In this document: positions 9,980-24,383 of the stretch, one piece after another
How positions within the stretch are numbered: position 1 is the first letter of the stretch
Layout: every line of letters begins with the position of its first letter
From: Persephonella sp.
Lineage (GTDB): Bacteria > Aquificota > Aquificia > Aquificales > Hydrogenothermaceae
Direction of reading: 5' to 3'
Length of the DNA: 37,378 nucleotides
Assembly: GCA_027028005.1 (NCBI GenBank)
Contig: JALVKE010000133.1
Location: 1 to 37,378 of the forward strand
Position numbers and translations under genes: made by a program
The notes under the pieces: model-generated
The model's input: the letters and a program-made list of their open reading frames with translations, nothing else
Database searches by the model: none
Told to the model about the DNA's origin: nothing

Positions 9980-10615
9980 TTAAACAGTTTGCTCTTCTAA
10001 TATTTCTGAAAGATAATCATAATCAGACATTATAAATTCAGCTCCTAACTCACAAACATCATAGTAAAAGGGTGTTTCTGCTATATCCCTTGCCGCTAAA
10101 AGATATATAGGTCCCCAGTTTGCAAGATGTTCCTCTAAAAATTTCTTCTGAAGTTGTCTAAGTCTTCTAACCTCTAGCTCATTTTCTTTTGCCATTGCAT
10201 TTAGTTCTTCCTGAGCAATATTCATCATAAACTCCATCTCTATTGCGATATGGTCTGGGGATAAAGCTCTTGTTTTTTCCATATCTATCTCATATCCATG
10301 CTGATGGTAAAACATGATAGTTGGGTTTGTTATTGATGCATTTATATATCCTTCATCATTCATGAAAACTGATTCGTAAGGATAAACATTTATAAGAAAA
10401 ACAGTTGTAAAGTCAGGGTTCAAATCTTCTTCTATAAGTTTAACAGTATCTTTTTTATGAAGAAGATCCCATTCTTTTGTGTTAGGGAATAAATCCAGAA
10501 GGTCTGGCGTATTCTTTATTTTTTCTAGTGTTGCAAAATCAACTTCTTCTATAAGAAGTCTTGATAATAGTCCATACATATTTATTCTTGCCTGTGTTTC
10601 TTCAATAGTTCCCAT
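9980..10615 (-). CDS. TorD/DmsD-family molybdoenzyme maturation chaperone
   Basis: 211 residues, all-helical, with the family signature SPDHIAIEMEFM (near residue 119) and the C-terminal pattern FLEEHLANWGP...FYYDVCELGAEFI. Such chaperones bind the twin-arginine signal and apoprotein of a DMSO-reductase-family enzyme until bis-MGD is inserted. It lies downstream of the 1094-residue catalytic subunit, separated by 177 bases with hairpins. As the only TorD-like gene in the window, it may serve either or both Mo enzymes. ATG at 10615 with AAGAGGT upstream. Confidence 0.88.
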   Translation of the reverse strand: MGTIEETQARINMYGLLSRLLIEEVDFATLEKIKNTPDLLDLFPNTKEWDLLHKKDTVKLIEEDLNPDFTTVFLINVYPYESVFMNDEGYINASITNPTIMFYHQHGYEIDMEKTRALSPDHIAIEMEFMMNIAQEELNAMAKENELEVRRLRQLQKKFLEEHLANWGPIYLLAARDIAETPFYYDVCELGAEFIMSDYDYLSEILEEQTV

Positions 10616-10792: not shown

Positions 10793-13700
10793 TTATTCTT
10801 CTGAATGTCCTTCTTCAGCACAAGGCATTCTATAAGATTTGTCTGTATGTGGATACCAAGGTCTTGGGAACCATTTAGGTCTTCTTAAACAGTTAGGTCC
10901 TGGAGCTGGTCTTGTAAGTCTATCTCTCCATCCTTGGTATACCTTAAATGTTGCTTCTGTATCAACAAATACATCTCCTATCCTATCCTCAGGACCACCT
11001 TTCTCTACGAGAACTTTTTTGTGCCAGCAATGCATTCCTGAAAGAGGATCTGGATTAGCAGGGAATACTGAGTTTTGCCATACTCCAGTAGCTCCATTCC
11101 ACCATACTTCCTTAATGTCTTTATTTATCTCAGGATAAGGCCATTTTAACCATTTTTCAGAATGTTCTCTTTCCACTTCGTGAGGCCAAACACCTCTCTT
11201 CCATCTAATAGCCCACTTATGACCTTTATTTTTCATATCAGCTAAAGCTGATGCATACGTTAAAATAGTTAAAGGTTGATCAAATCCTTCCACTTCAACA
11301 CTGTTTACAAGTCTCCATCTTCCAGAGTGGTGGGAGCAAGCAAGAACTCCTGGTCTTGTAGCCTGAGTAGGCATAGCCATTCCAACAAAGTACCCTGTTT
11401 TAATTCCTGTTAATGAGTCTACAACCCAAACTTTTATAGGGTCTCCTCTCTTAATACCTAGTTTCTTAGCATCCCCTTCATAAATCCATACAGGATTATG
11501 GTTCTGAGAGATTTCCATAAGCCATTTTGAGTTTGCAGAACGAGTGTGAATATTGTAAGGAAGTCTAAAGATTGGATTAAGAGCAAACGCATTCTCTTCT
11601 TCCATATAGCTATGGTGTACGTGAGAGAGAATATGTATAAGCTTCTTTCTATCGGCTTCATCTTTTGGATATATAGGTATTGCATATTCAGGCCAGTTCC
11701 ACTCAACAAATGTTTTAGAGTAAAACTCTAAATGTCCTGTTGGTGTATGCCATCCTACTAAGAACTTACCATCTTTCTTAACAGCTATAGTATGTCTTTC
11801 TGAATGATATTTATCTGCAACATGATGTTTTAGATAAACTGCACCTGTATCTGGATCAATTTCACACTCATCAAGGGAAATCCATTTTCCTTTTACCTTT
11901 ATAGCATTCTTATCTGGATCATAAGGTACTTCTCTTTCATGGACATTGTAAACATTAGTTTCCTCAGTCCATGCTCCTCTATCTCTCATATACTCATAAG
12001 GTGTTGTTCCAAGTTCCTCACAGATTTTCTTAAGGTTTGGAAGTGTAGAGAAAGCAGCGTTATACCATTCTTCTATAGTTACTGGTCTTCCTGGATGTTT
12101 TTTAGATTCCCAGTACTTTCTTATACCAAGTTTTCCATCAGGATCTATAGCCCATGCAAGATTAATCCAGAACTCATTTTCTTCCCAGACCTCACCAAGA
12201 CCAGCTTTTATATGAGCTTCTAACGTAGCTCTCCATGGAACTTTTGGTCTCCATCCCATTTTCATTAATGTTACTCTTAAAACAGGCTGTCTAAATGCAG
12301 TCCATCTTTCTGGTTTTGTTTCTGCTGACTGGTTATCGTGTCTCTCTCCAGCTAATCCAACAGGTAGGATATAATCAACATGCCAGTTTGTCTCAGACCA
12401 CATAGGAGAGAGGTTTACAGTAAGCTCCATTTTACTTTCATCTCTTAATACTTCTATCCATCTAAAACCATCAGGATTTATCCAAACAGGGTTATATATC
12501 TTAGATATCCATACTCTTAATTTTCCTGGTATTTTAAGGCCTCTTCTAGCCCATTTTTCTCTCCACTGATCATCAGAGAGAAGGTGAGGAAGTAAGAATG
12601 AAAGTTCATATGTAGATAAAGGCCACTCTGGAGGCCATAAAAGTTCATTCCAGTCATCTACAGGTTTTGGTTTTTTACCTATAGTAGCATCGTACCCTTT
12701 TCCACCTACTCCTAAAACATGCCAGTGGTGCCAGCCTACTCCACCAATTCCACCTATTGAACCTGTAAGAGCTAAGAAGAATAGACCTGCTCTACCTGCA
12801 TTCATCCATCCACCACGGTTCCCTGCAGCTTGAGCTCTCCAGAAGTAAGAAGTAATTCTATCCCCAGCCCAGAGAACAAGCTCATACAGTTTTTCTATCC
12901 TATCTAAAGGAACTTTTGTTTCTTCAGCAGCCCATTCAAATGTATAAGGAGCGTATATCTGTTTTAAAACAGATATAAAGTCTTCAAATGTTTCTCCTTC
13001 AGGAATTTCCTGTATTCTTCCTTCTAGCTTTAAATATTTTAGATACTCTTTGTCTTTTATAAATGTTTTCCAGTTAAACCATCTTTCCACAAATTTTCTG
13101 TTGTACTTATCTTCTTGCAAAAGTCTATTTGCTAAAGCTAAGTATATGGCTCCTTCTGTTCCAGGCCATATAGGAAGCCATAAATCAGCCATACCTGCTG
13201 AGTTTGAAAGTCTTGGATCCATAACAACAAGCTTAGCTCCTTTAGCTCTAGCATCAGCAATATAACCTGCATGCTGTTGAAAGTAGTGACCTGCGTCTGC
13301 AGCATGAGAAGACGCTAAGAAAATTAATCTTGAATTTGCAAAGTCTGGAGATGTTCTATCATCTCCTGTCCATGAGATGGAACCTAATCTACCACCTGCA
13401 GAACATATATTCGTATGAGAGTTATGATGATCACCACCCCACGTCCAGACAACCCTTGCAGTGAAACCACCAGATTCATTAGGTCTTCCTACATGGTACA
13501 TTATCATCTTTCTTTCAAATTCAGAACCTTTCTCTAGTGTTTCTCTTATCTTTTTACCAATAGTTTCTAAAGCCTCATCCCACGTTGTTCTAACCCATTT
13601 TCCTTCTCCTCTTTTTGAGCCAGGAGCTCTTTTTAGAGGGAATGGGATTCTATCTGGATCATACATCTGAGATAATGATGCGTATCCTTTTGCACAGTTC

Positions 13701-14077
13701 CTACCTCTAGATCCTGAGTGGAAAGGGTTACCCATAAATTTTTTAACAGTTAAACTGTCTTTATCTACCCAAGCTGTTAAACCACAAGCAGCTTCACAGT
13801 TGTTACAGACTGTTGGAACAATCATATAGTTTATTAGCTTGACACCATCTCTTAGAGCACCACCATGTTTCTTCCAGTAGTCCCCATCTGGTTCCTGCCA
13901 GTTTTCCCATTTTTCAAAAGGAGGATAATAATCTAAATGGCTTGGAGTAAATGTTAACTCTGTTTTTGTTTCTTCATTTGAAGATGCTATAGACTTTTCT
14001 ACAACACCTTTTGCTAAAGCAGCTCCACCTATTGTTGCTGCTATTCCTTTTAAGAAGTTTCTTCTTGATGTTCTCAT
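10793..14077 (-). CDS. Tat-exported molybdopterin oxidoreductase catalytic subunit (sulfur/polysulfide/tetrathionate reductase-like)
   Basis: 1094 residues, DMSO-reductase family. The Tat signal RRNFLKG starts at residue 5. The FS0 4Fe-4S motif is C91-x2-C94-x3-C98-x29-C128. Cys225 in NICSAGGRLGS is the likely Mo ligand; then LIFLASSHAAD, VVMDPRLSNSAG and LWLPIWPGTEGA are bis-MGD-binding segments. The C-terminal MopB domain includes LACSHHSGRW and NPVWI. With the FeS and NrfD genes immediately upstream in B-C-A order it forms a membrane-bound, periplasm-facing complex exchanging electrons with quinone. Family relatives include PsrA, TtrA, ArrA, the Aquifex sulfur reductase SreA and SoeA; the Tat signal argues against cytoplasmic SoeA. 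A sulfur-compound substrate is inferred from context. Confidence 0.85.
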   Translation of the reverse strand: MRTSRRNFLKGIAATIGGAALAKGVVEKSIASSNEETKTELTFTPSHLDYYPPFEKWENWQEPDGDYWKKHGGALRDGVKLINYMIVPTVCNNCEAACGLTAWVDKDSLTVKKFMGNPFHSGSRGRNCAKGYASLSQMYDPDRIPFPLKRAPGSKRGEGKWVRTTWDEALETIGKKIRETLEKGSEFERKMIMYHVGRPNESGGFTARVVWTWGGDHHNSHTNICSAGGRLGSISWTGDDRTSPDFANSRLIFLASSHAADAGHYFQQHAGYIADARAKGAKLVVMDPRLSNSAGMADLWLPIWPGTEGAIYLALANRLLQEDKYNRKFVERWFNWKTFIKDKEYLKYLKLEGRIQEIPEGETFEDFISVLKQIYAPYTFEWAAEETKVPLDRIEKLYELVLWAGDRITSYFWRAQAAGNRGGWMNAGRAGLFFLALTGSIGGIGGVGWHHWHVLGVGGKGYDATIGKKPKPVDDWNELLWPPEWPLSTYELSFLLPHLLSDDQWREKWARRGLKIPGKLRVWISKIYNPVWINPDGFRWIEVLRDESKMELTVNLSPMWSETNWHVDYILPVGLAGERHDNQSAETKPERWTAFRQPVLRVTLMKMGWRPKVPWRATLEAHIKAGLGEVWEENEFWINLAWAIDPDGKLGIRKYWESKKHPGRPVTIEEWYNAAFSTLPNLKKICEELGTTPYEYMRDRGAWTEETNVYNVHEREVPYDPDKNAIKVKGKWISLDECEIDPDTGAVYLKHHVADKYHSERHTIAVKKDGKFLVGWHTPTGHLEFYSKTFVEWNWPEYAIPIYPKDEADRKKLIHILSHVHHSYMEEENAFALNPIFRLPYNIHTRSANSKWLMEISQNHNPVWIYEGDAKKLGIKRGDPIKVWVVDSLTGIKTGYFVGMAMPTQATRPGVLACSHHSGRWRLVNSVEVEGFDQPLTILTYASALADMKNKGHKWAIRWKRGVWPHEVEREHSEKWLKWPYPEINKDIKEVWWNGATGVWQNSVFPANPDPLSGMHCWHKKVLVEKGGPEDRIGDVFVDTEATFKVYQGWRDRLTRPAPGPNCLRRPKWFPRPWYPHTDKSYRMPCAEEGHSEE

Positions 14078-14096
14078 TTATGCTACCCTCCTATTA

Positions 14097-14981
14097 TTAA
14101 CTTAATGGTAAGCATTGAGGAGCTATTAGCCACGCATGTTTAATAAGCCATAAGCCTATCAATGCAAATACAGAACCGTATAAAGCGTATCTATATCTTC
14201 TTTTTTGAATAGCAATTCCAACAAAAGCCATTGGAAGAATAAATGCAAAAACCATTCCTAGCCAGAAGAATGGAGCAACTTCTCCAAATGCTAAAATCTC
14301 TATCACCCTATGAGCAAATTCACTGTGCATTTTTGCAAAGAATAACTCCCCTATGAACATAGCAGCTAGAAGACCTGCACTACCAAAAAGTATGTAACCT
14401 AACTCTCTTCTTACTTTTTCGCTAAGAGGATTCTTAAAAATAGCATCTACAATTAAATATGCTGCTGAACCTGCTAGTAATGCGCTAAGAAGCATTGAAA
14501 TCATTTCAGCTGGGAATACCCAAACTTCTCTACCTGTTGATTCACCCATAATTCCAGCTGTATATATTGTGGAGAAAAATGCCAGAATAAAACCTGGAAT
14601 CATAATCTTATCAAGTAGTTGTCTTTTTCCTGTAACCCATGACCAAAAAGCTATAAGTAAAACAATTACAAATGCTGAAACAACCCAAGCACCTAAAGTA
14701 ACTGCTGAAGTAAAGTGTGGGTGCGCAAATATATGCCAAAATCTAAACATATGATGTAGATCTAAAACTGTTACTAAAAGTGTTATACCAATAAAGATAA
14801 TACCTAAAATAGGTAACCATTTTCTAAAAAATCTATCTTGATCAGGATATTTTTTAATGAAATAAATTCCTAAGAAAAAAGAACCTGTTGCTATACTTTT
14901 TGCCCACATATTTGTAGAAACTAGCCACCCCCAAACTACTTTTGGGAGAGCTACATCAAAAGTTACTTCTGCTCCCAACAT
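14097..14981 (-). CDS. NrfD/PsrC-type membrane subunit
   Basis: 294 residues with about eight transmembrane segments, the NrfD/PsrC arrangement of two four-helix bundles. It begins VVWGWLVSTNMWAKSIATGSFFLG, typical of the quinone-site helices, and includes DLHHMFRFWHIFAHPHFTSAVTLGAW with several histidines and HRVIEILAFGE later. It anchors the Mo complex and exchanges electrons and protons with quinone; NrfD proteins usually carry no haem. It starts 2 bases from the FeS-subunit stop, with its AGGAGGG site inside that gene, and is 19 bases from the catalytic gene. Confidence 0.9.
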   Translation of the reverse strand: MLGAEVTFDVALPKVVWGWLVSTNMWAKSIATGSFFLGIYFIKKYPDQDRFFRKWLPILGIIFIGITLLVTVLDLHHMFRFWHIFAHPHFTSAVTLGAWVVSAFVIVLLIAFWSWVTGKRQLLDKIMIPGFILAFFSTIYTAGIMGESTGREVWVFPAEMISMLLSALLAGSAAYLIVDAIFKNPLSEKVRRELGYILFGSAGLLAAMFIGELFFAKMHSEFAHRVIEILAFGEVAPFFWLGMVFAFILPMAFVGIAIQKRRYRYALYGSVFALIGLWLIKHAWLIAPQCLPLS

Positions 14982-14983
14982 GA

Positions 14984-15619
14984 TTAATGCCCTCCTATGT
15001 GGTCTAAGAACTTAACTTCTGTAAATAATGTAAATCCTTCAGGTCTCTCAGAAGCTAATGGATCTAATGCTACTGTAGAACCTCTTACATAGAAATGTTT
15101 TGGATGAGTATTTAATTCAGGTTTTCTAACCATAACATCTCTATGAGATTTTAAGTATTTAGAAATCTCTGATTCTGGGTCGTCGAGATCTCCGAATATA
15201 TTTGCATGAGTTGGACATGCAACAACACAAGCAGGCATTAAACCAACTTCAATTCTGTGTGCACAGTAAGTACATTTATCTGCTGAATTTGTTAATGGAT
15301 CAAGATATATAGCATTGTATGGACAAGCCATCATACATGAAGCACAACCAATACATCTGTCATGATCCACATTAACAATACCATTAGGTAGATAGTGAAG
15401 TGCAGAAACAGGACAGATCCTTTCACATGGTGCATTTTCACAGTGATTGCATCTTAAAGGAACAAAATGTCTCTTTACATCTGGGAACTCTCCTTGGTCT
15501 ATATATTTGACCCTAAGTCTCCAGCTGTGAAGAGGAACGTTGTTTTCTGCCTTACAAGCAACAGCACAGGCCATACAACCCATACATCTACTCAGGTCTA
15601 CCAAGAAACCTAATCTCAT
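14984..15619 (-). CDS. DmsB/PsrB-type 4x[4Fe-4S] electron-transfer subunit
   Basis: 211 residues with the four-cluster pattern of DmsB/PsrB/TtrB subunits: SRCMGCMACAVACKAEN, CNHCENAPCERICPVSAL, DRCIGCASCMMACPYNAI and CTYCAHRIEVGLMPACVVACP. It transfers electrons between the Mo catalytic subunit and the NrfD membrane subunit. It has no signal peptide of its own, so it presumably crosses the membrane with the Tat-bearing catalytic subunit. Its ATG at 15619 has a GGAGGG site. It opens the second Mo module and is preceded by a hairpin that separates it from the first. Confidence 0.92.
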   Translation of the reverse strand: MRLGFLVDLSRCMGCMACAVACKAENNVPLHSWRLRVKYIDQGEFPDVKRHFVPLRCNHCENAPCERICPVSALHYLPNGIVNVDHDRCIGCASCMMACPYNAIYLDPLTNSADKCTYCAHRIEVGLMPACVVACPTHANIFGDLDDPESEISKYLKSHRDVMVRKPELNTHPKHFYVRGSTVALDPLASERPEGFTLFTEVKFLDHIGGH

Positions 15620-15681: not shown

Positions 15682-16161
15682 TTATAAACAACCTTTGAAG
15701 AAACCTGGCTTTGGTTTTGGCGTAATTTCAAATTCTGTAAATTTAATAACAACTATATCTCCTTTCTTTCCAACGGGAACAGCTGTTCCATCTATACTTC
15801 CACCAAATCCTTCTAAAAGGTCAGACCAGTAAACACCATCCTTTGTAGGCTTTACATAAAAGTACTCACCTTCGGTAACATCAAATATAACAATTTTTGG
15901 ATTTTCATCATATATATCTTTCACTCCTTCCCAAGCTGCGTGGGGAGGACATGAGGATAAAACATCAAATGTTCCTTTTTCCTCCGCCTCTTTAGCACAG
16001 GATACAGCTGTTATAACAGCTGAAGTAAACTCTAATTCCTCTTCTTCCTCCTCTTCTTCTACTGTCGCTTGTTCTTCAGCATAAACATAAGAAGTATAGC
16101 CTACAGTAGATAGAAGAAAAGCAAGACTCAGTATAGACGCAAATATTTTCTTTATTCTCAT
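15682..16161 (-). CDS. Exported acidic protein ending Gly-Cys-Leu, unknown family
   Basis: 159 residues, not recognised. A signal peptide (MRIKKIFASILSLAFLLSTV..., cleavage after YVYA near residue 28) is followed by an acidic run (residues 35-44). The folded part has Cys55 and Cys71 (SSCPPHAAWEGV), beta-rich segments (KIVIFDVTEGEYFYVKP, GDIVVIKFTEFEI) and a proline-rich tail TPKPKPGFFKGCL with penultimate Cys158. The tail resembles in layout the DsrC/TusE carrier arm (Pro-rich, then Gly-Cys-aliphatic), and the rhodanese-like protein at 21576-22076 also ends Gly-Cys-Leu. It follows the gamma subunit by 13 bases. A sulfur-carrier or assembly role for the type II enzyme is inference. Confidence 0.75.
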   Translation of the reverse strand: MRIKKIFASILSLAFLLSTVGYTSYVYAEEQATVEEEEEEEELEFTSAVITAVSCAKEAEEKGTFDVLSSCPPHAAWEGVKDIYDENPKIVIFDVTEGEYFYVKPTKDGVYWSDLLEGFGGSIDGTAVPVGKKGDIVVIKFTEFEITPKPKPGFFKGCL

Positions 16162-16174
16162 CTTTTAACCTCCA

Positions 16175-17371
16175 TTATTTAAAATTCTTCCAGTTTAGCA
16201 GAGTTTTTAAATAAGCAACAATATCATTAATTTCTTGAGGTTTTAGATGAACAAATGCAGGCATTTTAGACTGTTTTTTGCCATTTGTTTCTATATACCA
16301 CTGATACATCGTGTTGTTTGGATACGCATTAAACTTATCAGGATTAGATTTCATATAGTGCCTGTTAATATTTAGATTTCTAATAATAACATCATTAGGA
16401 TCAACAATTGATTCTTTTAAATATACTGCATTAGCTATTCCACCAATATCAGATAAATTCGGTGCTAATCCTGCAGGTGCCGTTTGAAACTCTCCTGCTC
16501 TGTGACACCCAATACATCCATTCTGTTGGAATAATTTTTTCCCTCTTTCTGGATTTCCTATATCTTTTCCTTTTTCTTTCCAGTCTGCATATGGACCACC
16601 CCAGGAAACATAAGCAAGATACTTCTTGTCTAGTTTATACTTTCCTAGTCTGATAAATTTCCATCTTGAAAGGGATTTGTTTCCATCTCTTTCATATTTG
16701 TTCCCGTCCCACACAGCAAAAGCTATGGGAACAAGACCTGCTTTAAGATTTGAATTTTCTGTTTTTAAAGGTCTTTTAAATACTGCATACCACTCTTTAT
16801 TCTTTGTGTCATATTTCATTACAATGTTAACGCTTTTTTCCTTTGTCTCAGTTAGAGAACCAAATCCTTTTGATATAAATGTTTTCTGATAATCTCTTCC
16901 TGCTACATTTTTTTGAAGATAAACGGTAACAGGATGATTTTCATCTCCCATTCCAACGTATGGAAGGGATATGCCTTTACCGAACTTATTAGGAAACTCA
17001 ATACTTACTCCATCAGCAAATTGATTTGTTGTTAAAGGAGGTTGTAAAGAAGGAGTAATATCTTTCCATCTTATATAAACAGCTATATTTTTTCCGTTAT
17101 ATGCTGCCTTCACTGTTGCTTTAACAGCTTCTTTTTCAGGTATAAGTTCATTTGCTTTTTTATCGTTTAATCTAACAGATACTTGCGGATATAGAGTTAT
17201 CTCAGTTCCCTTTGCTTTTTCCCATATTTTAGCATTTGGATCTGAAGGTATATCTTTTGATGTATATAAAGCATTAATAACTTCATACTTAAAAAAACCT
17301 TTATCAGCAGCTACAGCAGATATAGACAGAGTAGATAGAGCTAATATAGCTGCTTTTAGAGTTCTTTTCAT
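16175..17371 (-). CDS. Gamma subunit of type II molybdoenzyme: haem-b domain fused to cytochrome c
   Basis: 398 residues with an N-terminal signal peptide (MKRTLKAAILALSTLSISAVAA). Residues about 30-255 resemble the EbdC/DdhC/SerC haem-b subunit: DGVSIEFP, then LPYVGMGDENHPV with Met141 as likely axial haem ligand, and WYAVFKRPLKT with a candidate Lys ligand (Lys199). Residues about 270-395 form a class I cytochrome c: NPERGKKLFQQNGCIGCH (CxxCH 286-290), GLAPNLSDIG and the Met-ligand segment SKMPAF (Met370). Classical ethylbenzene dehydrogenase, DMS dehydrogenase and selenate reductase gamma subunits are about 210-240 residues without the fused cytochrome. The fusion would pass electrons directly from haem b to a c-type chain in the periplasm. 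Confidence 0.85.
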   Translation of the reverse strand: MKRTLKAAILALSTLSISAVAADKGFFKYEVINALYTSKDIPSDPNAKIWEKAKGTEITLYPQVSVRLNDKKANELIPEKEAVKATVKAAYNGKNIAVYIRWKDITPSLQPPLTTNQFADGVSIEFPNKFGKGISLPYVGMGDENHPVTVYLQKNVAGRDYQKTFISKGFGSLTETKEKSVNIVMKYDTKNKEWYAVFKRPLKTENSNLKAGLVPIAFAVWDGNKYERDGNKSLSRWKFIRLGKYKLDKKYLAYVSWGGPYADWKEKGKDIGNPERGKKLFQQNGCIGCHRAGEFQTAPAGLAPNLSDIGGIANAVYLKESIVDPNDVIIRNLNINRHYMKSNPDKFNAYPNNTMYQWYIETNGKKQSKMPAFVHLKPQEINDIVAYLKTLLNWKNFK

Positions 17372-17408
17372 TTATCTTTCCTCCTTAGTTGTTCTTTTGT
17401 TAAAAAGA

Positions 17409-17421
17409 GGGAGGGACTCCC
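17409..17421 (-). other. Small hairpin between beta and gamma genes
   Basis: GGGAG and CTCCC pair around GGA in the 54-base gap between the beta stop and the gamma ATG. It has no U-tract in the direction of transcription; it is weak alone but fits the pattern of hairpins at junctions in this cluster. Confidence 0.35.
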
Positions 17422-17425
17422 GATT

Positions 17426-18595
17426 TTAATGATGTCCCTCTTTTTCTTTCTCTTCTTTCATAGCTGGTTGTGTTTCAAAGTAAACTTTTCCATAGATACC
17501 TTCAACTTTAGGTGTGTTTGCACCTTGAACATATCTCTCATCTATTATTCTAAAGTATTCAGAACCTTTTAATCCTTGTTCTGCTGCAATTTTTTCATAG
17601 TACTTATGGTCTAATCTGAACATATCAGCATGGTTGTAAGCTATAAGAATATCCATTAACTCAGATTCTTCTCCCCTTTCTCTCTTTGCCATCTCTTCCT
17701 TAAGGGTTTTTATAGCCTGATGGACTTCAGGTCCAAAGAGCTTTTCAAGATACTCCATAGGAATTCTTTCTTCACTTTCTATAGGCTTTCCTTCATCATC
17801 AAATTTAGGTGGAGCAATAACTGGTGGAACGTAGTAAACGTTAGGCTGTGTTCCAAAATCAGGTCTAAGAGGAAGAGCTACTTTGTATTTGTGAACAAGT
17901 TTATAAACCTGTGATTCTTCATCATCAAGGAAACCTACAAATCTAATTCTTCCTACACACTGATGAGCACATGCCGGAGGAAGACCTTTTTCAATTCTAG
18001 GGAAGCAGAATATACATTTTTCTGATTTAGAAAGTTTAGGGTTAAAGTAGATCTTCTTATAAGGACAACCTGCAATACAGTATCTGTATCCCTGACATCT
18101 ATCAAGATCAACAAGAACAATTCCATCCTGTTCTCTTTTGAATATAGCTTCCCTTGGACATGCAGCTAAACAGCCAGGGTTTGAACAGTGATTACATATT
18201 CTTGGTATATAGAAGTAGTAAGAGTTTGGCCAATCTCCTATACCAACATCCTCATCCCAGTTTGGACCCCAAACAGGATCAGAATCTGGAGATAGGACAA
18301 ACTCATCTGCAGGAGAATTAAATATCTCATCGTGATTATAATCCCAAGGCACTCCATAGTCTAAAACCATATCAGGTATTATTCCATCTTTTAAGTTTCC
18401 TTGCTCGTCAAAACCTCCACCTGCTTCCATCCAGTTTCTTGGATAACCTACGCCAGGATGAGTTTCAACGTTGTTCCAGTACATATACTCTCTTCCATTT
18501 CTGTTTGTCCACTGGGTTTTACATGCTACCGTACACGTTTGGCAGCCAATACATTTATTTAAATCCATTACCATTGCTAATTGTCTTTTAGCCAT
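17426..18595 (-). CDS. Beta (iron-sulfur) subunit of type II molybdoenzyme, NarH/EbdB-like
   Basis: 389 residues. Cluster motifs: C15-x2-C18-x2-C21-x3-C25; C134-x2-C137-x4-C142-x3-C146-P; C167-x2-Tyr170-x2-C173-x3-C177-P; and C194-x2-C197-x11-C209-x3-C213. Tyr170 replaces a cysteine, as Trp does in NarH, so that site should hold a [3Fe-4S] cluster, characteristic of type II enzymes (NarH, EbdB, DdhB, SerB, PcrB). The stretch ETHPGVGYPRNWMEAGGG is also typical of this branch. No signal peptide: it would be exported by Tat together with alpha. It sits 17 bases after alpha, with GGAGG before its ATG. It passes electrons from alpha to the gamma haem. Confidence 0.92.
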   Translation of the reverse strand: MAKRQLAMVMDLNKCIGCQTCTVACKTQWTNRNGREYMYWNNVETHPGVGYPRNWMEAGGGFDEQGNLKDGIIPDMVLDYGVPWDYNHDEIFNSPADEFVLSPDSDPVWGPNWDEDVGIGDWPNSYYFYIPRICNHCSNPGCLAACPREAIFKREQDGIVLVDLDRCQGYRYCIAGCPYKKIYFNPKLSKSEKCIFCFPRIEKGLPPACAHQCVGRIRFVGFLDDEESQVYKLVHKYKVALPLRPDFGTQPNVYYVPPVIAPPKFDDEGKPIESEERIPMEYLEKLFGPEVHQAIKTLKEEMAKRERGEESELMDILIAYNHADMFRLDHKYYEKIAAEQGLKGSEYFRIIDERYVQGANTPKVEGIYGKVYFETQPAMKEEKEKEGHH

Positions 18596-18612
18596 CTATA
18601 TAACCTCCTTAA

Positions 18613-21522
18613 TTAAGCTTTCTCTATATCTACAGTTGTTTCATAAGCATGCTGGTTACCATCCCAGTTACCTCCAAATTTAAGGTGACCCCAGCTGTCA
18701 GAAAGCTCCAGTAGATTTAGAGGTGAAGCGTTTACTGCATTGTGAGATATATTTCCTTTAAAGTAAAATGGCTCCCAACCGTGCTCTATGATAATTGCAT
18801 CTTTTGGACAAGATGGATATATCTTAGCCATGGCATAGAACTCACCAAGGTCATTAAAGATTTTTATCTCATCTCCATCTTTTATTCCTTTTTTCTTAGC
18901 AATTTCAGGGTTAATCATTACGTAAGGCTTACCTCTTTGAAGTCTCTGTAGGAGAGAAGACTCTTTGTATGTGGAGTGGATAGACCATCTTGCGTGAGGT
19001 GACATAAGAACAAACGGAAATCTCTTAGGTCTAATTGGTTCTTTTGCTGTTGGAACATTTGCTCCAAACTCTATCCATCTATCGTGGTCAACGTAGTATG
19101 TAAGTCTTCCTGATAGAGTTTCAAATCTTTCAAAGAGATATAGGTTGTTTTCAAATGAGTTGTAAGGTTTATCTGGATAAAGAGGAGATGTTTTTCCTGC
19201 CTTTTCATTTAACTGTAAGTAACCACCTCTTTTTCTCACTGTCTCTATTGTGTTTGGTTTAAACTGATCAACACTTTCAAGAGCAAGTTCTACAGCATCT
19301 CTATCTGTTCTTAAGTGTCCACCTTTTGTATACTCTTCAACAACTTTATCAAGGTCTCTGTATCCTGTTTTTGAGTGAGTTGGATCAGGTATTTTAATAT
19401 ACTTCTTATCTCCAGTTTCTTTATACTTCTTCATTGCAAGTTCTTGAAGTTTCTCAACAATCATTGTACAGATTTCCCACTCAGATTTTGACTCACCAAC
19501 AGGTTTTAGGTTTTGAGGTGGTTGTGCCATATTTGCATATCTGTGATATCCAGGGTTAGTTCTTATATCCCATACTTCATACATTGATTTCGCTGGTAAG
19601 ACAATATCTGCATACTGAGCTGTTGAGTTCATTCTCCAGTCTACATAAGCAAAGAATTTAGCTTTTTTAAGGAATGCCTCTCTATAAGTTTCACCTTTGT
19701 TTCTTCTAAATCTAGAGTCGGCAAAAATTAAGAATGTTTCAACTGTATCCCAGTAAGGTTTACCGTCTTTATTGTGGAAACTTTCTTTCCATTTTTCATC
19801 ATTTCCGTAGTTTTCAAGATCTTTTTTTACTCTCTTGAGATACTCTTCTTTAGAAAGATCTGTAGCTCTTCTTATATCTTCATCAGAGTAGAGTTTTTCA
19901 ACATCTTTTATCATATTACCTAATACATATTCTTGAACAAATCCTGAAGCAAATCTCTGCTTATACTTTCCTGCAAATCCAGAGAGTTTACCCATTCCAG
20001 ATATAGCCCATTCATTTTCCGTGTTAAATCCACCGTAAGGTCCAAGTCTTCCAACAAGACCTGGTATAGAAGCTATGGCTCTTTGAGCAAGCATACCATT
20101 GAAATATTTACCAATGGTAAATCCCATAGAGATCATAACAACTTTTGGAAGGGCTATATCTTTAGCAAGTTGTTCAACAATTGTTGGGTGAACCCCTGTT
20201 AATTTCCATGTCTTTTTAGCGTCAAACTTAGCAGCTTCTTTCTTAACAAGCTCAAAGACTGTTGTAACTTTTACCTTTTTACCATCTTTAAGAGTAACTT
20301 CCCACGTTCCCTCTAGTGCAGGATCAATATCCCAACCTACATCTTTTAGTCTGAGAGTTTTAACAGGAGCACCTTCCGTTCCAGGCATTACTGTAAGTTT
20401 ATTTGTTTTTGTATTCCATGAGAAGAAAGTAGCTTCAGGTTCAAACTCTTTTCCTTCACCTTTCATTTCGAAAATTTTAAATACATCGTGGTCAAATTCA
20501 GGTGATTTTTCAGGATCTATATCTGAAAGTCTAAGAAGTTTTTTATTGTCAAGCCTTACAAGGAATGGTAAATCTGTAAAATGTTTAACAAATTTTGGTT
20601 TATAAAGTTTCTTTTGGATAATCTCATTTATGATAGCCATAGCTAAAAAGCCATCGTATCCTGCTCTAACAGGGACCCAAAGGTCTGCATGAACACAGGA
20701 AGCATTAAAGTCTGGAGTTATTACAATGTTTTTAGCACCGTTATATTTACCTTCCCAGAGGAAGTGTGCATCAGGAATTCTTGTTTTATTAGGGTCCTGT
20801 CCCCACCATATATTTACATTTGTTGTATAGAAATAGTCGTAAGAACATCCTATATTACCTTCTCCGTATACAACTGTAACGCCAGGGAACATATCCCCAA
20901 CATAAGAAGCAATATAGTTTCTTACAGCTCCAAGAAGGGTTCCAAGCCTTTTTCCTGCTGCACCTCTTCCTTCTGTAAGCATTCCTGCTCCAACGTGAAT
21001 GAAGAGGCCTTCAGGACCTTTTGTAAGCATCGTTTCATATATGTTTTGTGCTATTTCAGTAATTGCCTCATCCCAAGTTATTCTCTTCCATTTACCTTCT
21101 CCTCTTTTACCAACCCTTTTAAGAGGATAAAGAACTCTATCTTTCTCATAAGTTACGTGGGAATGCTGAACCCCTTTATTACATCCTCTTGGATTAAAAT
21201 CTGGAATTTTTGGATTTATAGGAGTATAGTTAGCAACCTGGTTTTCTCTAGTTATTACTCCATTGTTAACCCATACGTCCCAAGCACAGTTACCCTGACA
21301 GTTTACACAGTGATAAGCTGTTCCATGATCTTCTTTTTCTCCATAGGTATAGATAAACTCATTTCTATACATATTCTCTGTATAAGAAGTATTAGGATAG
21401 CTATGTCTAGGATCTTCTACTATAACAGCATCCTGTTTAGCAAAGGCTGCATTTCCTCCAAGAGTTATACCAGCTCCACTGGCTCCAAGGGCTTTTAAGA
21501 AATCCCTTCTTGATAGTGCCAT
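18613..21522 (-). CDS. Alpha (catalytic) subunit of a type II DMSO-reductase-family molybdoenzyme
   Basis: 969 residues. Tat signal SRRDFLKALG (residues 4-13). FS0 ligands follow the type II pattern His71-x3-C75-x3-C79-x34-C114 (HCVNCQGNC ... RGCNKG). Asp210 in SYVGDMFPG aligns with the Mo-coordinating aspartate of NarG/EbdA. IPDAHFLWEGKYNGAKNIVITPD is the family's conserved pterin-binding region, and the C-terminal MopB domain contains MINPEIAKKKGIKDGDEI. With beta and gamma this is an alpha-beta-gamma periplasmic enzyme related to ethylbenzene and dimethylsulfide dehydrogenases, selenate and (per)chlorate reductases. Substrate not predictable; adjacent rhodaneses and YeeE suggest a reduced sulfur compound. 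Confidence 0.92.
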   Translation of the reverse strand: MALSRRDFLKALGASGAGITLGGNAAFAKQDAVIVEDPRHSYPNTSYTENMYRNEFIYTYGEKEDHGTAYHCVNCQGNCAWDVWVNNGVITRENQVANYTPINPKIPDFNPRGCNKGVQHSHVTYEKDRVLYPLKRVGKRGEGKWKRITWDEAITEIAQNIYETMLTKGPEGLFIHVGAGMLTEGRGAAGKRLGTLLGAVRNYIASYVGDMFPGVTVVYGEGNIGCSYDYFYTTNVNIWWGQDPNKTRIPDAHFLWEGKYNGAKNIVITPDFNASCVHADLWVPVRAGYDGFLAMAIINEIIQKKLYKPKFVKHFTDLPFLVRLDNKKLLRLSDIDPEKSPEFDHDVFKIFEMKGEGKEFEPEATFFSWNTKTNKLTVMPGTEGAPVKTLRLKDVGWDIDPALEGTWEVTLKDGKKVKVTTVFELVKKEAAKFDAKKTWKLTGVHPTIVEQLAKDIALPKVVMISMGFTIGKYFNGMLAQRAIASIPGLVGRLGPYGGFNTENEWAISGMGKLSGFAGKYKQRFASGFVQEYVLGNMIKDVEKLYSDEDIRRATDLSKEEYLKRVKKDLENYGNDEKWKESFHNKDGKPYWDTVETFLIFADSRFRRNKGETYREAFLKKAKFFAYVDWRMNSTAQYADIVLPAKSMYEVWDIRTNPGYHRYANMAQPPQNLKPVGESKSEWEICTMIVEKLQELAMKKYKETGDKKYIKIPDPTHSKTGYRDLDKVVEEYTKGGHLRTDRDAVELALESVDQFKPNTIETVRKRGGYLQLNEKAGKTSPLYPDKPYNSFENNLYLFERFETLSGRLTYYVDHDRWIEFGANVPTAKEPIRPKRFPFVLMSPHARWSIHSTYKESSLLQRLQRGKPYVMINPEIAKKKGIKDGDEIKIFNDLGEFYAMAKIYPSCPKDAIIIEHGWEPFYFKGNISHNAVNASPLNLLELSDSWGHLKFGGNWDGNQHAYETTVDIEKA

Positions 21523-21556
21523 ATATCTTACCTCCTGAAATATGTTTCAAATTTTA

Positions 21557-21580
21557 TATAAAAGGTAGCTGCTTTTTATA
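21557..21580 (-). other. AT-rich hairpin between rhodanese-like and alpha genes
   Basis: TATAAAAG and CTTTTATA (with one unpaired base) pair around CAGCTAC, overlapping the stop codon of the upstream gene. It has no terminator-type U-run after it on the minus strand. Possible mRNA processing or stability element. Confidence 0.3.
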
Positions 21581-22076
21581 GACAACCGCCACCACCACCA
21601 GCTGCAGGTGGTTCATATTCTCCTTCATCTTCTGGATAACCTGCATCATCCCATGCTTCCATACCACCTTTTAAATTCTGAACAATAGTAAATTTCTTAG
21701 CACATTTTTCAAATATCTTAGGATCCCCATCTTTAGATACGATAACTGTTGGAAGATATGGATTTATATGTTTTAAAGCTTCTTTAGGTGCTTTAGATTC
21801 ATCACAGTCAGGAAGAGGAATAGCACCAGGAATATGTGCACCAGTATAGTAATCTATTTCTTCAGCTTCATCTTCCTCTTCTTCAGGAATTTCATAAGGT
21901 CTAACATCTATTATTTGAATAGTGATTTTAGGATTTCCAAGTTTTTTGTATAGTTCTTCAGCTGTTATAGGTATCTTTTTCTGAAGCTCAATTTCTGTTT
22001 TTCCAAGACCAAGGAGAACAAGAGAAAGAATACCTATAACAACTATATATAAAACTCTTTCTAATTTAGCACTCAT
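21576..22076 (-). CDS. Membrane-anchored rhodanese-like protein lacking the catalytic Cys, with Gly-run-Cys-Leu tail
   Basis: 166 residues. One N-terminal transmembrane segment (about 8-24) would place the rest in the periplasm. The rhodanese fold is marked by IQIIDVRPYE (55-62), an acidic insertion (64-73), YTGAHIPGAIPLPDC and VQNLKGGMEAWDDAGYP. The active-site loop, normally Cys-x4-Arg/Thr after a beta strand, reads VIVSKDGDP, so Ser114 replaces the sulfur-binding cysteine. Other cysteines are 91, 125 and 165; Cys165 is penultimate, after a run of five glycines (PPAAGGGGGCL). This looks like a flexible arm carrying a terminal thiol, as on SoxY (GGCGG end) or DsrC. Its ATG overlaps the preceding stop (TAATG). 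Likely a sulfur carrier or docking protein for the enzyme encoded next. Confidence 0.8.
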   Translation of the reverse strand: MSAKLERVLYIVVIGILSLVLLGLGKTEIELQKKIPITAEELYKKLGNPKITIQIIDVRPYEIPEEEEDEAEEIDYYTGAHIPGAIPLPDCDESKAPKEALKHINPYLPTVIVSKDGDPKIFEKCAKKFTIVQNLKGGMEAWDDAGYPEDEGEYEPPAAGGGGGCL

Positions 22077-22219
22077 TATTCTTCTCCTCCTTCTGTGGCT
22101 GCTTGGGAAACTTGCTGAGCTTTTTGTTCAAGCTTTGAGATATCCATTTTTACACCTATAATAGCCACAACAAGGGCAAGAATTCCTATCCACCAAAGAA
22201 TTCTTTCTATCATACTCAT
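22076..22219 (-). CDS. 47-residue single-pass membrane protein in the sulfur/Mo operon
   Basis: Short gene between the YeeE gene and the rhodanese-like gene: ATG at 22217-22219 with AGAGGTG upstream, TAA at 22076-22078 overlapping the next ATG by one base (TAATG). The protein starts MSMIERILWWIGILALVVAI, a transmembrane helix of about residues 7-23, followed by a Lys/Glu/Gln/Ala-rich amphipathic helix (DISKLEQKAQQVSQAATEGG). Coupled spacing on both sides supports expression. Not recognised; may be a small partner of the YeeE transporter or of the membrane-anchored rhodanese-like protein. Confidence 0.75.
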   Translation of the reverse strand: MSMIERILWWIGILALVVAIIGVKMDISKLEQKAQQVSQAATEGGEE

Positions 22220-22233
22220 TTTCTTCACCTCTC

Positions 22234-23361
22234 TTAATCGTAGACTTCATCAGATTCTTTCTTAGCTTCTATAAACTTAGACCATCTTCCAAAGTAAATA
22301 AGGTTTGCTGTTAAAACTCCAACAACAAAGTATGTTGCTGATTGAGCCATAGAACCAATAGAAAGGGTAGGATATGCTGATAAGAATGCACCTGTTGTAC
22401 ATCCACCGCCAATCATGGCTCCTAAAGCTAAGAATATACCTGCAAAGAATACTAGTACTAGTCTAACCCATGGGAATGGAGCTACAGCTTTTGCAAAAGC
22501 TGGAGGAACAGCATCAAATTTAAATGTACCCGAGATAATAGCTGAAATAAAAGCTCCTGGTAGGACTCCCATAATTAAACCTGCGTGCCAAATAATACCA
22601 TCTGTTACTCTTGGAACAGATGCAAGAGGATGCCCTATAAGATGACCTATCCATCCAACAAATGCTAAAGCTCCACCTGAAAAACCTAAGTATTCTCCTT
22701 GAGCTGTAGCCCATGTTATTATAAGACCTGCCAAGATACCAGAAATAGCCCAGTGCCATTCACCTTTAAGCCAACCTTGATTTTCAGAACCTTGTTCGAT
22801 CTTTTTAGCAGGATCAAGCCAGTCTGCTACTAATGCAAAGATTATAAATAAAACACCCCATACTACAGCTAAAACACCGTATGGAAGACCTAAAACTCCA
22901 TAGAGGGTTAATTTTTCTTTCATACCTAAAATTCCTGCTTCTACTAAAGCAGGTTTAATTGCATCGTATATTATTATTCCAAGTATTAATCCTATAACAC
23001 CTGCAGCGGAGATAAACTTTCCTGCTCCAACCCTAGCTACACATGTACCAGGGCAGAAACCTGCAGATGCCATGGCAATACCAAATAAGAAACCACCTAC
23101 AAGATGAGCAATTCCCATATAGGGCATTATTCTAGGAATTATATTTGTCTCTTCAGCTAGCCCAAAGATATCAACAAGACCATAAATAATAGATGCTGTA
23201 GCAATTCCAATAAATGCAAATTTCATAATTTTTAAATCTCTAAGGAGAAGCATTCCTTCTACTCTTGAATATCTAATAGCTCCAACTTTATGAAGAACAA
23301 TTCCAAAAAGAGCACCAGTTAAGAGACCCATCAGGAGATGATATGTATGTGTATGTTCCAT
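22234..23361 (-). CDS. YeeE/YedE-family (DUF395) sulfur-compound transporter
   Basis: 375 residues, about nine or ten transmembrane segments in two pseudo-repeats. Conserved cysteine motifs: ASAGFCPGTCVARVGAG (Cys103, Cys107) and MIGGGCTTGAF (Cys321), matching the thiosulfate-relaying cysteines of YeeE/YedE proteins. The family moves thiosulfate or sulfane sulfur across the inner membrane. Here it lies between a periplasmic rhodanese and a membrane-anchored rhodanese-like protein, so it could import the sulfur product or substrate of the Mo enzyme. ATG at 23361 with GGAGG upstream; 14 bases to the next small gene. Confidence 0.9.
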   Translation of the reverse strand: MEHTHTYHLLMGLLTGALFGIVLHKVGAIRYSRVEGMLLLRDLKIMKFAFIGIATASIIYGLVDIFGLAEETNIIPRIMPYMGIAHLVGGFLFGIAMASAGFCPGTCVARVGAGKFISAAGVIGLILGIIIYDAIKPALVEAGILGMKEKLTLYGVLGLPYGVLAVVWGVLFIIFALVADWLDPAKKIEQGSENQGWLKGEWHWAISGILAGLIITWATAQGEYLGFSGGALAFVGWIGHLIGHPLASVPRVTDGIIWHAGLIMGVLPGAFISAIISGTFKFDAVPPAFAKAVAPFPWVRLVLVFFAGIFLALGAMIGGGCTTGAFLSAYPTLSIGSMAQSATYFVVGVLTANLIYFGRWSKFIEAKKESDEVYD

Positions 23362-23408: not shown

Positions 23409-24383
23409 TTACTTTTCAATTGGAAGTTCAGGAGTGTTACCCCATTCATCCCAAGAACCGATGTAAACTTTAGCTCTTGGAACGCCAGCAAGTTTTGCTG
23501 CAGCATAGATGAAAGAACCTCTACCAAGACCTACGTGACAGTATGTAATAAGTGTATCTGTTTCTGGATCAAATCCTTTCTTTCTAAGTTTTTTGAAGAA
23601 TATCTTTTTGAGTTTTTTCACAGGTTTGAAGAGGTGTTTACCTGGTTTTCCATGAGGGTTTCCTGCAACCTTTTTCCATTCAAAGAATACAGCTCCAGGA
23701 ATATGTCCGCCTCTTTTAACAGTTTCGTGTTTTCCAGGGGCTTCTAAAGCTTGTAAGAGTGTTTTTCCTGTATACTCAGCAAATCTTCTTGCGTCTAGTA
23801 TAAAGTATTTAGATTTTTTACCATTTTTCTTGATATCTTCAATAGCTTTTAAAACTTCATCTTTTGTAGCAATCATATCTCTTTGAACATTTGCTTTAAA
23901 TGTTTTTGGTGTAGGAGGTTTTCCTTCACCTTCTTCAACAGGATATCCTTTATATGCCCATGTAACAAATCCACCATCTAACATCTTAACATCTTTAAGA
24001 CCATAAAGTTTTAAAAAGAACCATACACCTGAAGCGTTTGGACCTCTTCCATCGTCGTAAGCAATTACAGAAGTGTTGTTATCTATTCCAAGATTTCCAA
24101 TGAATTTTTCTGCTCTTTCTGGACACATAGGTAGTCCATTACACTTTCTAATGTCTGAAAGTAGGTGAAGGTCGTGTGCAAAAGCATGAGCTGAACCTGG
24201 AATGTGGCCTGCTTTGAATTTTTTATCACTATCTCCATCTACAAAAACAGCTGCCTTTTGATCAAATACTTTTTTGGCATCGTCTACCCAAATAAGCATA
24301 TCTTCTGGCTTTTCTGCTTTTGCTACCCCAGAGATTGCTACTGCTCCAGCTAAAGCTAGGAGAGAAAGTTTGAATTTTTTCAT
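23409..24383 (-). CDS. Periplasmic two-domain thiosulfate sulfurtransferase (rhodanese)
   Basis: 324 residues with signal peptide MKKFKLSLLALAGAVAISGVAKA. Two rhodanese domains: an inactive N-terminal one (FVDGDSDKKFKAGHIPGSAHAF, VIAYDDGRGPNASGVWFF with Asp instead of Cys) and an active C-terminal one with Cys282 in TYCHVGLGRGS. The second domain also has ILDARRFAEYTG and GGHIPGAVFFEW. It transfers sulfane sulfur between thiosulfate or polysulfide and an acceptor in the periplasm. First gene after the operon promoter, with AGGAGG before ATG 24383. The usual six-residue loop ends in Gly-Arg-Gly rather than Val-Thr, so donor preference may differ from classical SseA. Confidence 0.9.
   Translation of the reverse strand: MKKFKLSLLALAGAVAISGVAKAEKPEDMLIWVDDAKKVFDQKAAVFVDGDSDKKFKAGHIPGSAHAFAHDLHLLSDIRKCNGLPMCPERAEKFIGNLGIDNNTSVIAYDDGRGPNASGVWFFLKLYGLKDVKMLDGGFVTWAYKGYPVEEGEGKPPTPKTFKANVQRDMIATKDEVLKAIEDIKKNGKKSKYFILDARRFAEYTGKTLLQALEAPGKHETVKRGGHIPGAVFFEWKKVAGNPHGKPGKHLFKPVKKLKKIFFKKLRKKGFDPETDTLITYCHVGLGRGSFIYAAAKLAGVPRAKVYIGSWDEWGNTPELPIEK

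Follow-up and report, generated by a model that had tools for sequence, protein, structure and literature searches.

A candidate periplasmic sulfur-carrier arm with a penultimate cysteine, encoded beside a type II molybdoenzyme in Persephonella and its relatives

The window analyzed here is a 37,378-nucleotide stretch of a contig from Persephonella sp. (Hydrogenothermaceae, Aquificota), and the operon under study lies on its minus strand. Read along that strand, the genes encode an SseA-like rhodanese, a YeeE/TsuA-like transporter, a 47-aa microprotein, a 166-aa rhodanese-like protein, the alpha, beta, and gamma-cytochrome c subunits of a molybdoenzyme, and a 159-aa acidic protein. Located 3' of the 159-aa gene are the genes for a second Psr/Ttr-like Mo enzyme with its Fe-S and NrfD subunits, TorD, and a polyferredoxin (Table 1). 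An earlier note on this DNA had singled out two ORFs whose products end in Gly-Cys-Leu. Both ORFs proved to be real, lie where Table 1 places them on the minus strand, and end in TPKPKPGFFKGCL (159 aa) and PPAAGGGGGCL (166 aa). They do flank the alpha-beta-gamma genes of a type II molybdoenzyme, as had been proposed, with matches to TIGR03479, TIGR03478, and TIGR03477 in between. The synteny of the unit SseA-YeeE-RHO-alpha-beta-gamma-FKGCL-PsrB-NrfD-PsrA, in which RHO is the 166-aa protein and FKGCL the 159-aa protein, is kept in the genomes of 18 relatives. No third tail-bearing protein was found near alpha in 80 loci.

Table 1. Features of the operon and of the genes 3' of it in the window
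Feature	Coordinates	Strand	Remarks
SseA-like two-domain rhodanese, exported	23409..24383	-	catalytic Cys282 intact; genetic partner of the enzyme
YeeE/TsuA-like sulfur-compound transporter	22234..23361	-	PF04143
47-aa single-TM microprotein	22076..22219	-	upstream of the rhodanese-like gene, overlapping its start
Rhodanese-like protein, 166 aa, membrane-anchored	21576..22076	-	N-terminal TM helix, rhodanese fold, tail PPAAGGGGGCL
Alpha subunit, type II DMSO-reductase-family molybdoenzyme	18613..21522	-	Tat signal, D210, FS0 ligands; TIGR03479 match
Beta subunit (Fe-S)	17426..18595	-	TIGR03478 above the curated cut-off
Gamma subunit (heme b, EB_dh/TIGR03477-like) fused to a cytochrome c domain	16175..17371	-	profile matches
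FKGCL-tail protein, 159 aa	15682..16161	-	signal peptide, acidic linker, small OB-like beta domain, Pro/Lys-rich arm ending PKPKPGFFKGCL
Second Psr/Ttr-like Mo enzyme with Fe-S and NrfD subunits	10793-15619	-	3' of the FKGCL gene
TorD-type chaperone	9980..10615	-	3' of the Mo enzyme genes, in Campylobacterota too
Polyferredoxin-like protein, 362 aa	8880-9968	-	3' of TorD

The beta subunit scored 546 against TIGR03478 (cut-off 480.7). Alpha and gamma had TIGR03479 and TIGR03477 as their best matches at scores below the cut-offs (832.5 vs. 984.75 and 130.3 vs. 169.85, respectively). Alignment to PcrA, ClrA, and NarZ placed D210 of alpha at the Mo-ligand position and H71, C75, C79, and C114 at the ligand positions of FS0, and these residues are invariant or nearly so in 69 sequences. 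Among the sequences compared, the closest characterized alpha was that of chlorate reductase, ClrA (36.9% identity), and the closest solved structures were perchlorate reductase, PcrA, followed by ethylbenzene dehydrogenase; the structure and sequence entries are taken to be PcrA and ClrA on the basis of their record names. The studied enzymes share with ClrABDC, PcrAB, and EbdABC the alpha-beta-gamma plan, a Tat signal, the Mo-ligand Asp, the FS0 His, and a heme b gamma. They differ in having a gamma fused to cytochrome c and in forming, in a tree of alpha sequences, a clade of their own with full support. In addition, the clr locus lacks the FKGCL protein and the rhodanese, both of which are companions of the studied enzyme.

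In gamma-cytochrome c, residues M141, K232, H290, and M370 are invariant; by analogy to known gamma subunits, M141 and K232 are candidate ligands of heme b, and H290 and M370 of heme c. We considered the tail cysteine as a ligand for a vacant heme position and rejected it because the ligand positions of both hemes are filled. Alpha also has a cysteine, Cys72, adjoining the FS0 His. This residue is present in 69/69 clade members examined (ClrA has Ser and NarZ has Gly at this position), although one of the search patterns used to collect the sequences contained it, so that its invariance arises partly by selection and was not counted as evidence. Cys72 is a possible thiol partner of the tail. 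In three Campylobacterota genomes (G174, G179, and G288), frameshifts or internal stops interrupt the alpha reading frame, reflecting either sequencing error or real inactivation, and the FKGCL gene is intact.

The 159-aa protein ends in FKGCL, with C158 as the penultimate residue, and its domain cysteines C55 and C71 are invariant. Structure prediction gave a small beta domain with short helices at high confidence and a signal peptide and acidic linker at low confidence; the last nine residues had a mean pLDDT of 61. Searches of Pfam, NCBIfam, PDB sequences, and PDB folds returned no significant relative. The Foldseek matches were weak ones to OB folds (E above 0.4), and homology to a known family was rejected. 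Since the other tail protein has a rhodanese fold, the two are mutually unrelated, in line with the unlikeness that the earlier note had pointed out.

The FKGCL end is present in 92/92 readable homologues, which come from Hydrogenothermaceae, Campylobacterota, Myxococcota, and one Bdellovibrionales locus. Within Hydrogenothermaceae, all 30 complete homologues have it, at full-length identities down to about 50%. When 397 Campylobacterota genomes were searched with a tail-less profile (34 rows, one of which kept part of the Pro/Lys stretch and none of which kept the FKGCL end), 53 homologues were recovered; all 52 that were readable end in FKGCL, and all are beside gamma. Outside Aquificota, the small protein lies directly 3' of gamma in every locus with enough downstream sequence, and the FKGCL end is kept in every readable locus, even where the rest of the protein is hardly recognizable. 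An alignment of 33 proteins from three lineages contained eight invariant positions, C32, C41, G103, and the terminal FKGCL, meaning that five of the eight are in the tail. At the DNA level, the FKGCL-stop codons occur in 71 spellings among 122 contexts, with synonymous sites varying freely, which indicates selection on the peptide. The arm has the same design in Aquificota (PKPKPGFFKGCL) and Campylobacterota (APPPPKKSFFKGCL). Campylobacterota versions often have two further domain cysteines, and some resemble N-terminal lipoproteins.

The 166-aa protein scored 41.8 bits against PF00581 (cut-off 22.2), and its top Foldseek matches were rhodaneses. Its AF2 model has an N-terminal helix at residues 3-34, and the last eight residues are disordered. 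Compared with PF00581 rhodaneses, the fold and profile are the same, but the conserved cysteine is on the Gly tail rather than in the active site: the active-site Cys is missing both in the alignment to the SseA-like protein and in the aligned homologues, and the only conserved cysteines are C91, C125, and the penultimate C165. The GGGCL end was found in 40/40 readable homologues. In Hydrogenothermaceae it takes the form GGGGGCL in 28/28 complete homologues, with full-length identity down to about 60%. A tail-less rhodanese profile recovered 11 proteins in 195 Myxococcota genomes; all 11 end in GGGCL and all are beside alpha. Nine of these 11 genomes also have the FKGCL protein, and in the other two its absence cannot be claimed because the locus is on a contig under 10 kb.

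The earlier note had called for a search for enzyme-adjacent homologues without the terminal cysteine, and none was found in either family. Thus, the terminal GCL is invariant in both, including in the homologues obtained with tail-less profiles. Each of the two tail proteins has three invariant cysteines, a single one of which is in the arm or tail. A disulfide between the two domain cysteines is likely outside the cytoplasm and, if formed, would leave the tail cysteine as the potentially free thiol of each protein. Signal sequences and anchors predict that both proteins face the periplasm; the claim that both are exported therefore stands in that respect, but the rhodanese-like protein is anchored by its N-terminal helix and not released.

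The microprotein encoded upstream begins MSMIERILWWIG, and small TM versions of it are found in every intact Hydrogenothermaceae locus examined. In one complete genome of a relative (G025; L078, 15500-16000), a deletion has taken out the rhodanese-like gene along with the N-terminal portion of alpha, joining the microprotein to alpha out of frame and leaving the FKGCL gene intact. This locus looks like a natural case of decay.

Comparison of the alpha alignment with GTDB species genomes revealed relatives in Myxococcota/Bdellovibrionota (57-61% identity) and in many Campylobacterota (53-58%). Searching the 397 Campylobacterota genomes for alpha yielded exactly the same 53 genomes as the FKGCL protein and no others. 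The corresponding Fisher p of 3e-67 ignores kinship, and it is the equality of the two sets that matters. No GGGCL rhodanese was found near the enzyme in Campylobacterota, although this phylum does have the enzyme together with the two-domain rhodanese and the FKGCL protein. Consequently, the suggestion that the two tails are always paired does not hold. In the alpha tree, Aquificota group with Myxococcota/Bdellovibrionota (support 0.98), apart from Campylobacterota, and thus the second tail belongs to one branch.

Across the three lineages, almost all loci that are complete enough have an SseA-like rhodanese beside the enzyme, and its catalytic Cys is kept in 65/65 sequences. This rhodanese, the FKGCL protein, and alpha-beta-gamma form the core of the system. 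Outside its catalytic loop, the SseA-like protein has two further invariant cysteines, C81 and C87 (65/65), and its first rhodanese domain lacks an active-site Cys. The YeeE/TsuA-like transporter is present in the Aquificota and Myxococcota/Bdellovibrionota loci.

Proteins that hold sulfur on a C-terminal cysteine arm are already known. DsrC/TusE carries it on a penultimate cysteine at the end of a Pro-rich arm, and SoxY on a cysteine in a terminal GGCGG arm. The solved DsrC chains end in PKPTGCV, and the FKGCL arm resembles their arm AGLPKPTGCV. With DsrC of Allochromatium vinosum in vitro, persulfuration and the uptake of sulfite were confined to the penultimate Cys111 (PMC3397948). Like DsrC, the FKGCL protein is small, is dedicated to one redox enzyme, and has a penultimate cysteine ending a Pro/Lys arm in 92/92 homologues. 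However, the two are not homologous, given that there was no TIGR03342 match in the genome to which the contig belongs and no PDB-sequence or significant fold match. The FKGCL protein is an exported beta-domain protein that partners a molybdoenzyme, whereas the partner of DsrC is the siroheme enzyme DsrAB. Furthermore, DsrC proper has a second arm cysteine ~11 residues upstream (usually absent in TusE), which the FKGCL protein lacks. Among 41 genomes of the order, none had a DsrC over the cut-off, and there was one sub-threshold fragment.

The likeness to SoxY is that both proteins are periplasmic (a prediction in our case) and have a C-terminal Gly-Cys arm. In the Sox scheme, the Mo enzyme SoxCD acts on arm-bound sulfur. 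Nevertheless, the FKGCL protein is not homologous to SoxY: a TIGR04488 search of the genome matched only a separate SoxY outside the window (G000:C47), which ends in IGGCG. No SoxZ-like gene was recognized among the genes between SseA and PsrA. The molybdoenzyme also differs from SoxC, belonging to the type II DMSO reductase family. SoxY is common in the 41 genomes of the order, and SoxC (TIGR04555) exceeded its 420-bit cut-off in none of them, the best matches reaching 185 bits. Replacement of SoxCD by the studied system would be compatible with this pattern; it is not demonstrated, because relatives from another family that lack the tail proteins lack SoxC as well. In 25 genomes of the family, SoxY and the FKGCL protein were associated with a Fisher p of 0.012, a value confounded by kinship, and some genomes have only one of the two.

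In disproportionators, the YTD and MOLY clusters include YedE or a molybdopterin enzyme, though not the combination studied here (PMC12998232). A search of the open literature, with subscription papers outside its scope, found no description of the gene cluster, the carrier family, the enzyme clade, or a Cys-less rhodanese with a Gly-Cys tail. The C-terminal cysteine arm as such is familiar from DsrC and SoxY; what we have not found described, and take to be new, are the putative carrier family, the clade of enzymes with which it partners, and the rhodanese that lacks its active-site Cys and ends in a Gly-Cys tail.

We propose, with a probability of about 0.6, that the FKGCL protein acts in the periplasm as an arm carrying sulfur for this molybdoenzyme, in the manner of DsrC or SoxY and with homology to neither. 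The substrate, the direction, and the persulfide chemistry are what we infer. The secreted SseA-like rhodanese would take sulfane sulfur from an outside donor and would pass it to the penultimate Cys of the FKGCL protein. The Pro/Lys-rich arm, which the low model confidence in the tail suggests is free to swing, would present the bound sulfur to alpha, a step suggested by the strict one-to-one genetic coupling. Electrons would pass from the Fe-S clusters of beta to heme b of gamma and on to the fused cytochrome c, most likely outward. In Aquificota and Myxococcota/Bdellovibrionota, the membrane-anchored GGGCL rhodanese may be a second carrier that feeds or drains the same relay. We favor the direction of oxidation because electrons most likely flow outward and because of the fused cytochrome c, the occurrence of the system in sulfur oxidizers (Thiovulum, Sulfuricurvum, and Sulfurovum), and the absence of SoxC and DsrC where SoxY is present. 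None of these arguments is strong: type II enzymes are found that run in either direction, and SoxC is likewise missing from further families in the order.

In favor of a carrier, we counted the invariance of the tails when tail-less profiles were used (52/52 for FKGCL and 11/11 for GGGCL), the DsrC-like arm, the neighboring SseA-like rhodanese with its catalytic Cys, and the identical sets of 53 genomes. We also counted the concentration of invariant positions in the tail, the one potentially free thiol of each tail protein, the heme ligand positions that are filled without the tail Cys, the rhodanese-like partner that has kept its fold and lost its catalytic Cys, and the lack of SoxC and DsrC over their cut-offs where SoxY is common. 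Given the adjacent rhodanese gene and a redox enzyme as obligate companion, carriage of sulfur is the interpretation that needs the fewest assumptions. On the other side, the sulfur metabolism is deduced from the neighbors, and chlorate reductase, whose alpha is the closest characterized one found, is not a sulfur enzyme. A requirement for two arms is countered by the Campylobacterota, which manage without the GGGCL rhodanese.

The hydrophobic FF and basic K that precede GCL also count against a carrier, as they could equally be a docking peptide. The FKGCL protein would then be a fourth structural or assembly subunit, attached through its C-terminal motif, with the cysteine permanently disulfide-bonded to the enzyme or packed against it, for example at alpha Cys72. 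Strict one-to-one coupling with alpha is expected of a subunit, conservation extends beyond the cysteine to the whole motif, and alpha does have this extra cysteine near the FS0 His, where ClrA has Ser, with the reservation about the search pattern given above. However, an unrelated second protein also ends in G-C-L, on a Gly linker, which would be superfluous for a specific docking site. Moreover, the arms are predicted to be disordered and rhodanese genes accompany the enzyme, and we consider a subunit unlikely. Alternatively, the tail cysteine might be a redox-relay thiol that alternately forms and breaks a disulfide with SseA or the rhodanese-like protein and either carries electrons or regulates the enzyme, with no sulfane sulfur involved. 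The presence of only one tail Cys per tail protein would suit such a role, and C81 and C87 of SseA would be potential exchange partners. Yet none of the genes identified in the syntenic unit encodes a partner with a thioredoxin fold, and the electron path through the Fe-S clusters and two hemes is already complete; we judge a relay to be distinctly improbable.

We give very little credence to a role of the C-terminal GCL as a signal for sorting or processing (lipidation, cleavage, or sortase-like anchoring), even though two unrelated exported proteins have this short, invariant motif at their very C terminus. A hydrophobic helix and a basic end are typical of known C-terminal sorting signals, and these tails have neither. 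N-terminal signals or anchors are already present, some Campylobacterota versions being lipoprotein-like. In addition, no processing enzyme was recognized among the neighboring genes identified, and alpha has no third tail protein nearby.

Beyond a sulfur-carrier role for the FKGCL protein, we put at even odds a broader proposal: that Aquificota, Campylobacterota, Myxococcota, and Bdellovibrionota share a periplasmic sulfur-energy module whose enzyme would use as substrate the sulfur on the penultimate Cys of a new carrier family. Such a module would have evolved independently to work like DsrC-DsrAB or SoxYZ-SoxCD, and some lineages would have gained a second carrier from a rhodanese whose active Cys moved to a glycine tail. 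Periplasmic sulfane-sulfur handling in Campylobacterota and Hydrogenothermaceae is only partly understood. If the proposal is true, a molybdoenzyme clade that resembles chlorate, perchlorate, and nitrate reductases by sequence would be reassigned to protein-bound sulfur, and a carrier family without a Pfam model would be added. The C-terminal cysteine swinging arm would have a further independent origin, pointing to a general solution for holding reactive sulfur on a protein. The FKGCL end beside alpha-beta-gamma is a clean marker of the system, and cultured organisms with it include Sulfurospirillum arcachonense DSM 9755.

The genes 3' of the FKGCL gene vary among lineages. The second Psr/Ttr-like Mo enzyme is present in Aquificota and in some Myxococcota loci and is absent in Campylobacterota. 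A polyferredoxin-like gene is found 3' of the FKGCL and TorD genes in Campylobacterota as well, and its product is possibly a maturation or electron-transfer factor.
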